Assembly: GCA_900095095.1 (NCBI GenBank)
Contig: FMBT01000292.1
Coordinates: 372,001 to 436,000, forward strand
DNA from: Fragilariopsis cylindrus CCMP1102
Taxonomy: Eukaryota > Bacillariophyta > Bacillariophyceae > Bacillariales > Bacillariaceae
DNA: 64,000 bases
Reading direction: 5' to 3'
Shown here piece after piece: positions 1 to 55,903 of the stretch. The notes under the pieces were generated by a model, which did no database searches, was not told the DNA's origin, and saw nothing but the letters and a program-made list of their open reading frames with translations. The translations under genes were made by a program, and so were the position numbers. Within the stretch, counting starts at the first letter, position 1. Each line of letters starts with the position of its first letter.

Positions 1-2206
1 AAATCGGGGTCACAACGTAGGGATTATCGTCCATTTGATCAACTCTATGACCAATAATTTGACGAGGGGGAGAGGCGGTACTGCATGAAGGAGAACCAAT
101 CGGAGGAGGAGGAGGAGTCGTTGATGAAACTAAGCCATTACAAGGGCTCCTCGGTGGAAGAGACCGGATCTTACGTCCGAATTGTAAACCACCCTTGAAT
201 CGAGGCTTGTTGCAGACATCCATTTTTGTAGCGTGTGCCCCTTCAAAAATAACATCGGAGTGTTCTGCTTCTATCATATCAGATGGTGACGAATCTCTCA
301 GCTCCCGGTCCACAGATCCAGCCCGTGGAGAAGAAGTTTCGAGTGCGTCTCCACGAAGATGAAGAGAAGTCAGATCTGAAACTTGTTTACGATCGATGTA
401 TGATACAATCGTAGGTGGTGCGTCGTCACCTCTAGTGCTGCCAGTACTACTAGTATTCAGAGACGCATTCGATCCTACACTAGGAGATTGTGCGGACCCA
501 CCTCGCCTGCTGCTAAAGGGTGGAAGATTGCGCAACCTGACACCGTCACGAAAAAAACGATCAGCACGAACACTTGCACCATCCATACGAACACGAGTGC
601 CTGGGCTTTCCGATTTGAATGCTGGACGTTTTTGATCCCGTTGCAGATGGTTCACATTTGCCACTTCTCGATCTGTCTCTGAGATAGCTGATAGGTATGT
701 GCCATGACTTTGACCGTTACTACTGTTGGAAGTCGTCGCACAACCAGAAGAACTAGAGATACTTGTAGGAAAGCTATTAGCCGTCTCGGGAGAATCTTGA
801 AGGTGTTGTGGATGAGAGTAACTACCATGTCGACCAACTATCTGGTTAGGTTCTGGGCTCGAAACGGAATATTGTTGTCGGTCGCATACGGCGGTCGTCT
901 TCGTAGTACCAATATTACTTGTTGAAGTAACGGTAGTCGAGGTTGCGACGCCAATGGAGGATTGAACCAAGTCATTTCTATCAGTGGACCCATCAGAAAC
1001 TGTTATATTGCAATTGGTTGGTGGAGATTCATCTGACGATATTGACGGTGGTCTCGCTGGATTCTCACGACCATCTCGAGGACGACCACTACTGATACGT
1101 AGGTTTCGAACATCCGTTAAGAACTTTGCAGCTCGAGATGCTGCACTCTTCTTCTTTGTTGCGTGCGGTTGCGGTATAACTTTTTCATCACCTTCTTCTT
1201 TCCATCGATTAGTAGTAGATGTGGAAGGGAACGGCACATTCGTCACTTCAATCGACGTCATTTCGCCCACATCATCGCCTTCGGCAACTCCCGTCAGTAT
1301 TTCGTCTTCATGTTGGATGGGATTGAAAATAACGGAACGGACTGGTCTCTCATTGGAACGGTTACTCGCTTTCAACATAGCATACGGTGGCATAGAAAAT
1401 GCGCTACCACCACCACCACCACCGCTAGTCTGGTTCGTTAATGATTCATTATTATTCTCCAAAATTTGAGAATTCGTCCTGGGAATGGATCCGAATGCGC
1501 TATACTTAGAAGTAGATAGAGGCGTAGACCTCGAGCGTGCATGATCCAAAATCTCCAATCCTGCTGGAGGTGGTTCATCCTCGTCACTATCACAGTCATC
1601 ATACTCATCATCATTGTTGTTGTTGTTGTTGTTGTTGATTGCAGACAATTGTGACTGCGTATGACGAAGAAGTGGCGTTGAATGAATATGTCTCCGAAGA
1701 GCAATCGGTTCAAGGAATTTTCCTTGTTGATGATGTTGTTGATGATTATTACTATGATTATGATTATTATGTGTTGTGGATGTTGCTGTCAGACGAGCTA
1801 AGCCTTCACCATAACCGCAAATCATCTCCTGTAAAGGTGGAGGAACAAATGTTTCTGCTCTCGTCTCGTTTATGTAAGTTTCGAACGTCCTAAAAGCTAG
1901 TTGTGCGAAAGATGATGATGAAGAAGCTGTTATGTTGCAGTTGTTGTTGACGTTGTTTGCTGCTGAAATCGCGGTTGGGGAAAGTTGGGGATTGTTCATA
2001 TTCATGTTCATGCTCATGCTCGTGTTCAATGGTTCTGTAGCTGTAGCAGTCGTAGTCGTATTATTCCCCGTGGATTCCTGAAAAGGATTAGTATGATAAG
2101 CTGACGAGGACGTCGTAGATAAAGATGTGTCGTCTGGGTCTGGGCCTACGCCGCTTTTAATCTCGATTGTTTGACGTTTTGCATCATTGTATTCTGACAT
2201 TACCAT
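1..2206 (-). CDS. Hypothetical low-complexity protein, 3' part beyond left edge
   Basis: A single reading frame stays open on the minus strand from an ATG at 2206-2204 to position 1, about 735 codons without a stop; I checked every codon. A second in-frame ATG lies two codons on (2200-2198). The protein begins MVMSEYNDAKRQTIEIK and is rich in Ser, Thr, Asn, Pro and Arg. It has an Asn run near 1616-1636, a six-Gly run near 1412-1429 and Met/Asn alternations near 2000-2025. I recognise no domain. Several Ser-Pro and Arg-rich Ser stretches look like a disordered, possibly phosphorylated regulatory protein, which is inference. Its C-terminus lies outside the window, so a domain may be there. An upstream exon is possible because an AG precedes the start region, but none is demonstrable. 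The divergent neighbour is the DEAD-box helicase at 4112. Confidence 0.75.
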   Translation of the reverse strand, partial: MVMSEYNDAKRQTIEIKSGVGPDPDDTSLSTTSSSAYHTNPFQESTGNNTTTTATATEPLNTSMSMNMNMNNPQLSPTAISAANNVNNNCNITASSSSSFAQLAFRTFETYINETRAETFVPPPLQEMICGYGEGLARLTATSTTHNNHNHSNNHQQHHQQGKFLEPIALRRHIHSTPLLRHTQSQLSAINNNNNNNNDDEYDDCDSDEDEPPPAGLEILDHARSRSTPLSTSKYSAFGSIPRTNSQILENNNESLTNQTSGGGGGGSAFSMPPYAMLKASNRSNERPVRSVIFNPIQHEDEILTGVAEGDDVGEMTSIEVTNVPFPSTSTTNRWKEEGDEKVIPQPHATKKKSAASRAAKFLTDVRNLRISSGRPRDGRENPARPPSISSDESPPTNCNITVSDGSTDRNDLVQSSIGVATSTTVTSTSNIGTTKTTAVCDRQQYSVSSPEPNQIVGRHGSYSHPQHLQDSPETANSFPTSISSSSGCATTSNSSNGQSHGTYLSAISETDREVANVNHLQRDQKRPAFKSESPGTRVRMDGASVRADRFFRDGVRLRNLPPFSSRRGGSAQSPSVGSNASLNTSSTGSTRGDDAPPTIVSYIDRKQVSDLTSLHLRGDALETSSPRAGSVDRELRDSSPSDMIEAEHSDVIFEGAHATKMDVCNKPRFKGGLQFGRKIRSLPPRSPCNGLVSSTTPPPPPIGSPSCSTASPPRQIIGHRVDQMDDNPYVVTPI

Positions 2207-52766: not shown

Positions 52767-54464
52767 TTATGGTTTCGTGTGCTGTTCTGCATCATGAGGA
52801 TATAGCGCTTTGATTCGAATATGCTCTTTGCGAATTCTTTGCTCAAAACTTGACCAAACTCCAAATGTATTCATCGAAGGAAGCTTTAATTCATAGAGCG
52901 TTTTCACAGATCTTGATAGTAGCTCAGAAACCGCATTGGCAAGATCTAGGCTGGTTCGTGCAATATCGAAATGATCAGCTCCTAGTAGCGACTTTTGTAG
53001 TGGCAATAAACGATATGCAGATAACGTCTGACGAGCCAACACCCCCAGTTGCATAGAATTCGAAAGCGAGTTGTCCTTTATCACAGTAGCACAAATTTCC
53101 AAATGTAAGGATAATATAGGAATCAGTACTATATGATCTACGTTTTCTAGTTGTTGTTTAGATTCTTGATAGAGTTCCAATACTGATTGTTCCATTGCCT
53201 TCGGAATTTCGTATATTTCCGCTGAAACTGTAGGTGATAACTGTATAGAAGCTTCAATCTCAGTTCGCATTTTTTCTAACTCTTCTGTTGCACTTTCAAT
53301 ACGATCCGTCAAACTTTGTTCGACCGAGCCTCCATCAAGCGGTGATGGAGGAAGTTTATTTCCAATAAGTTCCATCCTGTATCTTTCGCCCTTGAGATGA
53401 GAGGCACCAATATCGAATCGGTGCTGTTCCCAAAGCAATTTACGCCTGGAAGCATGACTCACGACTCGAGATAAGTATGAAATAGTCAAGTTTTCGCCTG
53501 CTTGGACTGTACGAGTAGTGCGGACTTCTGAATATGAAGTACCATCTGTTGGGAACAATTTGGTACAATTAGGGTAGTCATCGTGATTAAGCATTGCCAC
53601 ATGCCGATAGACACCGGATTCAAGACCGTTGTATCTTAATGCTAGGAGCATCCGTAGTATGTCAATAGCAGTCAACGCCGAACCATCCCGCGAACATATA
53701 CCCTTTTCTCTGGCAATTTCTACCAAAACTACAACATCATGTTGAAACTGCTGCTGCTGCTGCTGATGATGTCGTTCCTCGGTTCCAATATCTTCCTCTA
53801 CTTCCGACGAAGAGGAATATTCTAGCTCTAACGTTTGGATCATTCTTGAAATTTGCTCATAGTTTTCGTTGTCTGTTGTATCGTCTATATGATGATGACT
53901 GTCCACGTGCTCTTTTGTCGGGTGGAAATCTTCGATATCGTGAACAAGCTGAGACGCATTTGAAGTCTCTAGCAAATGCTTGATAGATACTAGTCCAAGC
54001 TTAGTCCCAAGCTGCTCTTCTGGCCATTCCATCATCGGGGACTCTATCAAAATCAAATTACCGGGTGGGAGTGTTTCGGACGCAACATAACCACGTCCGC
54101 CACCTAAAGGGAGCGATGATACGAGAAGGATCTTTCCCTTATATATAGGATCAGGCCATGCTAGATCAAGCGTTTTTAAAGACGACAAATCCTCTCGCTG
54201 ACGCTCATTGTCATTTCCTGGTCTCTTCGCGAATGTCGTTGTCGTTGTCACATTGCCGTGCGGTAGAACGATCTTTTCGTTGGCAGCTTCGACGAGTGAA
54301 CTAGCCATTGCCATGGCATTGACGGAAGCAGCTAGTTCGTCGTCGTCATCGTCGTCATCACCAAAGAGACCAAAGGGATCCTCGTCTTGTTCTTCCTTCT
54401 CCATTTGCACTTGTTTTATAAGTTGTTTGTAGGTATACGTAGGGGAGTGTGGGGTATTGAACAT
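52767..54464 (-). CDS. SET-domain protein, SMYD-like split SET
   Basis: One exon, 565 residues, ATG at 54464. The first SET half lies at ~ residues 110-145 (GGGRGYVASETLPPGNLILI then ESPMMEWP). After an inserted acidic, His/Gln-rich segment the second half follows at ~ residues 285-345: AMLNHDDYPNCTKLF, SYSEVRTTRTVQAGENLTIS then YLSRVVSHASRRKLL. The N-H-x-x-x-P-N-C core and the Y of GENLTISY are the expected SAM and lysine-binding elements. The split SET and C-terminal helical part (ending near residue 550) resemble SMYD proteins, but no MYND zinc finger is evident in the insert. An acidic run D7 lies near residue 40. Lysine methyltransferase activity is inferred; the substrate could be histone or non-histone. 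Confidence 0.85.
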   Translation of the reverse strand: MFNTPHSPTYTYKQLIKQVQMEKEEQDEDPFGLFGDDDDDDDELAASVNAMAMASSLVEAANEKIVLPHGNVTTTTTFAKRPGNDNERQREDLSSLKTLDLAWPDPIYKGKILLVSSLPLGGGRGYVASETLPPGNLILIESPMMEWPEEQLGTKLGLVSIKHLLETSNASQLVHDIEDFHPTKEHVDSHHHIDDTTDNENYEQISRMIQTLELEYSSSSEVEEDIGTEERHHQQQQQQFQHDVVVLVEIAREKGICSRDGSALTAIDILRMLLALRYNGLESGVYRHVAMLNHDDYPNCTKLFPTDGTSYSEVRTTRTVQAGENLTISYLSRVVSHASRRKLLWEQHRFDIGASHLKGERYRMELIGNKLPPSPLDGGSVEQSLTDRIESATEELEKMRTEIEASIQLSPTVSAEIYEIPKAMEQSVLELYQESKQQLENVDHIVLIPILSLHLEICATVIKDNSLSNSMQLGVLARQTLSAYRLLPLQKSLLGADHFDIARTSLDLANAVSELLSRSVKTLYELKLPSMNTFGVWSSFEQRIRKEHIRIKALYPHDAEQHTKP

Positions 54465-54971: not shown

Positions 54972-55041
54972 CTTCAGTCCCTCCGCATCGGAAAAAAGTA
55001 TCTTTAAAAACAGATTCCAGACATCTAAAGAGGGACGTCAT
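54972..55041 (-). promoter_or_regulatory. Candidate SECIS element in peroxiredoxin 3' UTR
   Basis: On the minus strand, 68 nt after the stop codon, ATGAC is followed by GTCCCTC (55036-55030), then a 46-nt interior and its exact complement GAGGGAC (54983-54977), followed at once by TGAAG. ATGA opposite TGAA flanking a helix is the layout of the SECIS non-Watson-Crick quartet (UGA opposite GA). The interior can form a further hairpin (ATCT...AGAT around GTTTTTAA). The perfect helix is only 7 bp and the position of the unpaired apical AA is not canonical, so this is a candidate only. Confidence 0.45.
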
Positions 55042-55108
55042 TCATACCAGAAAATAACTAGTAAGTAATCAATCAAACGAGTTGTGAATCTACACACATG
55101 TCCCAAAG

Positions 55109-55903
55109 TTAATCTTTTTTGGCGGCGGCCATTTTGATCAAAGCAGGAGCAAGGGTTTTCTCTGGGAAATCATCACCGGCTGGGTCGCTCTCAGCTTCGG
55201 CAACTGCCATGGCTGTGATAATATTGTTCTCAACAATCATGGCAAATCGTTTGCTACGATTGATGATACCTACGGATTTGGGTCCATCGGCAGTAAGTTC
55301 CATGTCACAGGCTCTAGTAAATTCACTAGTTGGGTCAGAGAACATTTTGATGATTGATCCATGAGTTCCCTGGTCTTTCGCCCAGGCCTAAATTAATACA
55401 AATAGAGGATGGGGTATTATGGTAAGAAGGAAAGAAAAACAAAGGAAGAAGGCGAACAACATCATGAACAACAAATTCACACGGAACTTACACCCATAAC
55501 TGCTGGATCGTTTACACAAAAGACGATGACTTCTTCAATGCCAGCGTCTATCAGGGAAAAAATTAATCAAAAGAAAGGATTAGTGAGTGAACGCCTAGAA
55601 AGAGTTGTTGCCAATAAGTTGTTCAGATCTTGCATATTGCAACTTACCTTTGAGAGCGTCTGCAGATTCCAAGTAGCCTGGAATCTGACGGTCGGATCAG
55701 GTAGGTGTGAAAGCTCCTGGTAGTCCGACAACTGCAACCTTCTTGTTCGCAGTATACGTAGCCATGTCACAACGGGCTTCGGGATCGAAATCATAAAACA
55801 TTTCAACGGCAGGAATCTTGCTCCCGACCTTGAGGGCGGAAAATGCACCCACGGAAGTAACACGAGCCGACAAAGCGGCTAAGCAGATCGTAGCAACCTT
55901 CAT
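55109..55903 (-). CDS. Type-II (Prx5-like) peroxiredoxin with selenocysteine at the catalytic site, plastid-type
   Basis: Three exons, 55903-55648, 55547-55492, 55387-55109, giving 196 residues if the in-frame TGA at 55699-55697 is read as selenocysteine (residue 69); introns 100 and 104 nt, phases close. The family motif reads VVGLPGAFTPT-Sec-SDRQIPGY, exactly where the peroxidatic Cys of type-II peroxiredoxins lies (AFTPTCS). Downstream sequence continues in the same frame: LESADALK|DAGIEEVIVFCVNDPAVM and G|AWAKDQGTHG then SVGIINRSKRFAMIVENN. Cys96, 27 residues later, fits the resolving Cys of plant PrxII. The N-terminus MKVATICLAALSARVTS then VGAFSALKVG is a signal peptide with a GAFSA plastid-targeting site. 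The enzyme would reduce H2O2 and lipid peroxides in the plastid. A plain pseudogene is unlikely because all downstream motifs and splice sites are intact. Confidence 0.88.
55697..55699 (-). other. In-frame TGA, predicted selenocysteine codon
   Basis: The TGA falls at the peroxidatic Cys of the peroxiredoxin active site, flanked by intact family motifs on both sides in one exon and one frame. No GT-AG pair could remove it without deleting the active-site motif. Confidence 0.85.

Follow-up and report, generated by a model that had tools for sequence, protein, structure and literature searches.

Selenocysteine (Sec) peroxiredoxins of diatoms are a kind of protein that is already known. Thalassiosira pseudonana has two Sec peroxiredoxin genes according to the available part of one paper (PMC2375036), and the available part of 'The algal selenoproteomes' lists PRX as one of the Sec proteins with the widest distribution in algae (PMC7539508). 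That some algae carry such enzymes had been stated in the preliminary description of the present locus, and with diatom Sec peroxiredoxins in print in 2007 and 2020 this is correct. Judged from counts of terms, the main texts of both papers do not treat compartment, signal peptides or resolving Cys; in PMC2375036 the word chloroplast occurs twice, both times about the cell structure of C. merolae. In the mostly open-access literature on Sec peroxiredoxins or selenoproteins, diatoms and plastids, as far as its texts were available, no report of a plastid location was found for the Sec peroxiredoxin family, and the corresponding literature on selenenylsulfides and resolving Cys residues likewise gave no report for this family. 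The plastid of Chlamydomonas is the primary plastid of a green alga. A Sec peroxidase in a plastid is not unprecedented, since a Sec-type GPx of Chlamydomonas is said, in the passages available, to be chloroplast-targeted (PMC3095285). In T. pseudonana a chloroplastic PrxQ is described as being up in high light (PMC5139114, available part).

The window analysed here is a stretch of 64,000 nucleotides from Fragilariopsis cylindrus CCMP1102. On its minus strand, between 55903 and 55109, three exons give a frame of 196 codons followed by TAA, with one single in-frame TGA at codon 69 (Table 1). If the introns are retained the frame meets five more stops beyond the TGA, the terminal TAA being counted as the last of them. 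A database relative, P0001, matches the whole 196-residue product at 97% identity (its longest contig measures 923 nt), and its alignment crosses both exon junctions without a gap. The splice sites are intact, as are the motifs downstream of the TGA, both of which had been claimed from the sequence beforehand. It had also been foreseen that standard gene finding would truncate or mis-start the gene, and read with the standard code it indeed falls apart in the ORF list into two ORFs, one of 68 aa and another of 78 aa, the latter in exon 3. The gene adjoins a 565-aa ORF with a SET domain (window 52767-54464, minus strand).

Table 1. Features of the Sec peroxiredoxin gene, in window coordinates.
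Feature	Position	Strand	Remarks
Exon 1	55648..55903	-	Signal peptide, GAFSA, start of Prx domain and in-frame TGA; gap-free against P0001
Signal-peptide-like N-terminus to F21	55841..55903	-	MKVATICLAALSARVTSVGA followed by F; cleavage site placed by eye between VGA and FSA
TGA codon 69	55697..55699	-	Predicted Sec replacing the peroxidatic Cys; context GAFTPT-U-SDRQIPGY
Intron 1	55548..55647	-	100 nt, GTAAGT...TAG
Exon 2	55492..55547	-	
Cys96 codon TGT	55516..55518	-	Sec+27, exon 2; candidate resolving residue
Intron 2	55388..55491	-	104 nt, GTAAGT...TAG
Exon 3	55109..55387	-	Ends at TAA stop
SECIS-like hairpin	54972..55042	-	AATGAC quartet side, 8-bp stem GTCCCTCT/GGAGGGAC, TGAA quartet side

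The window gene encodes a PrxII/Prx5-type enzyme, with the TGA exactly at the position of the peroxidatic Cys, in one exon and one frame, as the preliminary description had it. Residues 25-170 match the Pfam Redoxin family (PF08534) with 86.2 bits against a cut-off of 26.6. The AlphaFold model of P0001 has a mean pLDDT of 85.3, with human Prx5 as its best structural match (Foldseek E 1e-17); it contains W at residue 69, and the confidence is reduced nearby. T66, R148 and R151 are identical throughout the 45 sequences compared, and these we take to be the catalytic Thr and the Arg residues that flank the peroxidatic residue.

A plastid bipartite presequence consists of a signal peptide, an aromatic residue at +1 and then a transit peptide-like stretch. 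In keeping with a diatom-like alga, the chlorophyll a/b-binding family has 104 matches in the genome, and its leaders are of the SAFAP type; among the 23 FCP frames printed, 14 have [FL]AP after a hydrophobic stretch, several of those lacking it beginning inside the gene, and some of the leaders are short. The window gene groups in a clade of 19 rows, itself included, with a tree support of 0.918. In 17 of the 19, A or S is followed by F and then by 4-8 residues up to a conserved Gly, and none of the 19 has an EL tail. The paralogue L005, with a signal peptide recognised by eye and the tail GGEEL, is likely to be an ER form. Other relatives carry RSFASVG, no presequence at all, or ASAFAP with a longer basic stretch (e.g., P0174 and P0216), which to our own reading look mitochondrial, cytosolic and of the classical plastid type, respectively.

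The main competitor for the location of the protein is ER retention or secretion, with an A-F motif that is nothing more than the end of an ordinary signal peptide. Only three residues separate F21 from the start of the Redoxin match at residue 25, leaving hardly any transit peptide, and A/S-F is also present in 7 of the 48 relatives that combine a presequence with a loose EL-type tail. Against this stand the A/S-F of the window clade together with its lack of EL tails, the FCP presequences of the same genome, which share the plan and include short leaders, and the interval between F21 and E34, which holds no acidic residue. Retention or secretion is a serious contender, which we consider somewhat improbable. 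A plastid location of the window protein is plausible from its presequence, and because of the three-residue spacer plastid import is put no higher than that. The signal peptide and GAFSA plastid site proposed earlier thus find support in the clade, but the same motif in ER-tailed relatives and the short spacer weaken the proposal.

L005 (contig C464, locus 1396-2055, minus strand) consists of one exon encoding 219 residues and has a TGA at the equivalent codon. The structure of the two genes bears on the idea that the TGA is a selenium-dependent switch, low selenium leading to a 68-aa product or to mRNA decay. In the window gene the TGA, in exon 1, is followed by two introns, an arrangement on which nonsense-mediated decay acts in other eukaryotes, while the frame of L005 has no intron. 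Such a switch would be compatible with the Sec account, but we find it quite improbable.

Database relatives were collected in three homology searches, each giving the best 120 of 7,789-7,949 matches, so the 260 relatives listed are skewed towards close kin. The alignment with Cys homologues, which had been proposed as a check, places the TGA in the column of the Cys of GAFTPxC. Among the 260 listed relatives this column 69 has W in 134, C in 86, D in three, R in two and I in one, and is absent in 34. The D and R rows weigh against a Sec reading of the column. The W probably represents TGA translated under table 4; the relatives were compared at the protein level, where W is a likely sign of TGA. 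An in-frame TGA at the position of a redox Cys is accordingly seen in two genes, the window gene and L005, and is indicated by W in the database relatives. Of the rows that lack column 69, 26 start downstream of the Sec site, one (P0059) has an unrelated N-terminus, and in seven, all of them diatom gene models, the Sec segment has been skipped (P0037, P0147, P0148, P0158, P0159, P0195, and P0255). In P0038, the row with I, intron sequence has apparently been read into the exon 3 part. Three database proteins labelled as MMETSP transcripts of Dactyl..., Eucampia, and Coret... (P0245, P0250, and P0257) have D-P at the Sec site and altered neighbouring residues, perhaps owing to a frame-shifted reading around the TGA. 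P0178, a protein of 287 aa with W at the Sec site, is a Grx-Prx fusion containing a glutaredoxin domain (PF00462) as well as Redoxin. Related loci are also found on viral contigs, where the best 80 of 562 display 36-45% identity to the query; these loci were left out of the further comparison.

The conservation downstream of the TGA is no lower than upstream. P0001 is identical at 43 of 44 positions over residues 25-68 and at 123 of 127 over residues 70-196, and the corresponding figures before and after the TGA are 23/43 and 84/125 for P0015. The window gene is under constraint, as judged from these comparisons. That faulty sequencing or a disabling mutation produced the TGA, the functional gene having Cys, would fit the existence of Cys homologues with the same motif, but as L005 shares the TGA, W is found in more than half of the listed relatives and the residues after the TGA are conserved, this is very improbable; the TGA is not an error and the gene is not dead.

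Absence of the Sec machinery had been named beforehand as grounds against a Sec reading, and the machinery is present: tRNA-Sec with the anticodon TCA, EFsec, SepSecS, and SelD. Thirteen tRNA-Sec matches are over the cut-off (L009-L016), three on each of the contigs C69, C547, C56, and C138 and one on C678, and those on C69 and C547 are repeated with a period of 163 bp. ARAGORN gave a TCA anticodon in the four tRNA-Sec loci that were run, calling two of the three genes on C56. Since C69 and C547 share 99.97% identity across 3086 bases, they are probably one array that has been assembled twice, leaving about 10 tRNA-Sec genes. Multiple tRNA-Sec genes were already known, as 11 non-identical predictions, of which two are disrupted by a mutation, have been described for F. 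cylindrus in the available part of PMC5330540, a number similar to both the 13 matches and the approximately 10 that remain without the duplicate. SepSecS is over the cut-off in the profile search of the genome. A second SepSecS piece, L018 (G000:C651:13064-13414), is matched across one in-frame TGA, which is probably an intron or the end of the frame. SelD is over the cut-off with model positions 46-262. The eukaryotic EFsec domain PF21208 gives two pieces over the cut-off on C108, where there is an ORF of 936 aa. TIGR00475, the model for bacterial SelB, found nothing over the cut-off in the genome; three sub-threshold places that were inspected appear to encode organellar IF-2, LepA-like and EF-Tu-like proteins. 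The PSTK models gave a weak match only, to a KTI12/PSTK-like gene. Further genes with an in-frame TGA encode GPx (L038, L039, and L040, and the GPx exon L041) and a SelT-like protein (L048).

A reassignment of nuclear TGA, for instance to Trp, would agree with table 4 yielding W and with TGA being a rare stop among the genes examined, where it ends one of 27 FCP reading frames, but it is hardly credible given that long frames such as the SET-domain ORF and the EFsec ORF lack inner TGA, that TGA occurs at the Sec sites of GPx and SelT, that the TCA tRNAs found are tRNA-Sec, and that Trp would presumably be unfit as a peroxidatic residue.

The 3' UTR of the window gene contains a SECIS-like hairpin around 68 nt past the stop codon. 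Under the stricter rule, the thresholds of which were chosen after the candidate was seen, the 601 nt downstream of the stop contain no other candidate, and 4 of 1000 dinucleotide shuffles equal this hairpin; in the whole window, both strands taken together, there are three such candidates, this one included. A looser rule adds a second, weaker hairpin in the 3' UTR. The stability of the 116-nt hairpin region is ordinary (z -0.77; 40 of 200 shuffles as stable or more). In classical SECIS elements an AA is found about 10-13 nt past the quartet, and the hairpin has no AA at the usual distance. The Rfam SECIS models did not match the window gene, the rest of the genome or any of the control genomes, and as they also missed the six other TGA loci (L005, L038, L039, L040, L041, and L048) this negative result is uninformative. 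A shape common to the TGA genes was sought in the 3' UTRs of GPx and SelT, but was dropped, as only loose likenesses were seen (AATGACG in the window gene, L005, and L048) and the window gene has the second, weaker candidate as well. The hairpin is nevertheless a good candidate for the SECIS element. The reading of UGA codon 69 as selenocysteine is strongly supported by the paralogue with TGA, the W column, the Sec machinery genes, and this hairpin taken together.

The residues that accompany Sec69 were compared after two removals, first of 40 of 262 rows that have neither W/Sec nor Cys at column 69 and then of 53 rows of the bacterial type, which carry Cys94 or His73. Cys96 is found in 120 of the 136 Sec rows, which include the window gene and L005, as against 10 of the 33 algal-type Cys rows; it is missing from 16 Sec rows. 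With a tree of 169 sequences, the data favour a model in which Sec and Cys96 depend on each other over one in which they change independently (LRT 25.8, nominal p 3.5e-5), and the fitted rate from Sec to Cys is 2.47 without Cys96 and 0.097 with it. The nominal p is overstated, because in a scan of 119 columns column 96 comes first (25.76) with column 177 practically level with it (25.46), and no fewer than 12 columns are above 12. The association between Sec and Cys96 is therefore suggestive. Column 149 has Cys in 108 of 136 Sec rows and 30 of 33 Cys rows and Ser in the window protein; that column aside, column 96 is the sole one with Cys in most Sec rows. Cys at column 94 is found in 53 of the 86 Cys rows, in bacterial-type relatives, and in none of the 136 Sec rows. 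In the P0001 model Cys96 ends the strand 91-96, and being on the same strand and two residues apart, columns 94 and 96 should face the same side. Cys96 may thus be a relocated resolving Cys and a candidate selenenylsulfide partner of Sec69.

Taken as a whole, the account that we regard as very probable is that of a nuclear diatom gene of the PrxII/Prx5 type whose UGA codon 69 would be decoded as selenocysteine by the cell's own tRNA-Sec, EFsec, SepSecS, and SelD, steered by the SECIS hairpin around 68 nt past the stop codon. The protein would enter the ER by means of its signal peptide and would probably go on toward the plastid by means of the A-F motif, the paralogue L005 instead having an ER-retention-like tail. 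The selenolate would then attack the peroxide, and either Cys96 or an external thiol, for example glutathione or thioredoxin, would probably resolve the selenenic acid. Of the Sec-dependent antioxidant enzyme inside the plastid that was suggested beforehand, the Sec part is strongly supported, while the plastid part is plausible from the presequence. A more far-reaching proposal is that there is a diatom plastid branch of Sec-PrxII in which Sec69 and the relocated Cys96 form a selenenylsulfide pair, beside Sec peroxiredoxins with ER, mitochondrion-like, and cytosol-like presequences, so that one selenoenzyme family would serve several compartments and lineages losing Cys96 would tend to go back to Cys; this is offered tentatively, and as a whole it is rather unlikely.

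If the protein is located in the plastid, the removal of peroxide at the photosynthetic organelle would be tied to the availability of selenium in one of the major groups of marine producers. Should the link between Sec and Cys96 be real, it would go some way towards explaining why some lineages keep Sec and others lose it. The seven diatom database models without the Sec segment also illustrate that gene models can skip Sec genes.

The T. pseudonana enzymes (PMC2375036) and the algal PRX family (PMC7539508), as described in the available parts of these papers, are like the window gene in being Sec peroxiredoxins of a diatom or another alga. What is distinctive for the subgroup of the window gene among the known diatom Sec peroxiredoxins is the plastid-style presequence and a partner Cys that tends to accompany Sec. 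The Chlamydomonas GPx is, as far as the text available shows, a Sec peroxidase like the window protein, but belongs to the GPx family and to a green alga (PMC3095285). The group of the ER-type paralogue L005 and P0019/P0020 is of the same family and has Sec (L005) or W (P0019 and P0020) at the same site, but differs in having KDEL, SDEL or EEL tails, in mostly lacking A-F and, for L005, in consisting of a single exon. With the PrxII/Prx5 enzymes, such as poplar PrxII (1tp9) and human Prx5 (1hd2), the window protein has the fold and the GAFTPxC motif in common, but it differs from them by the predicted Sec in place of Cys and by having a Cys at column 96 instead of at column 94.
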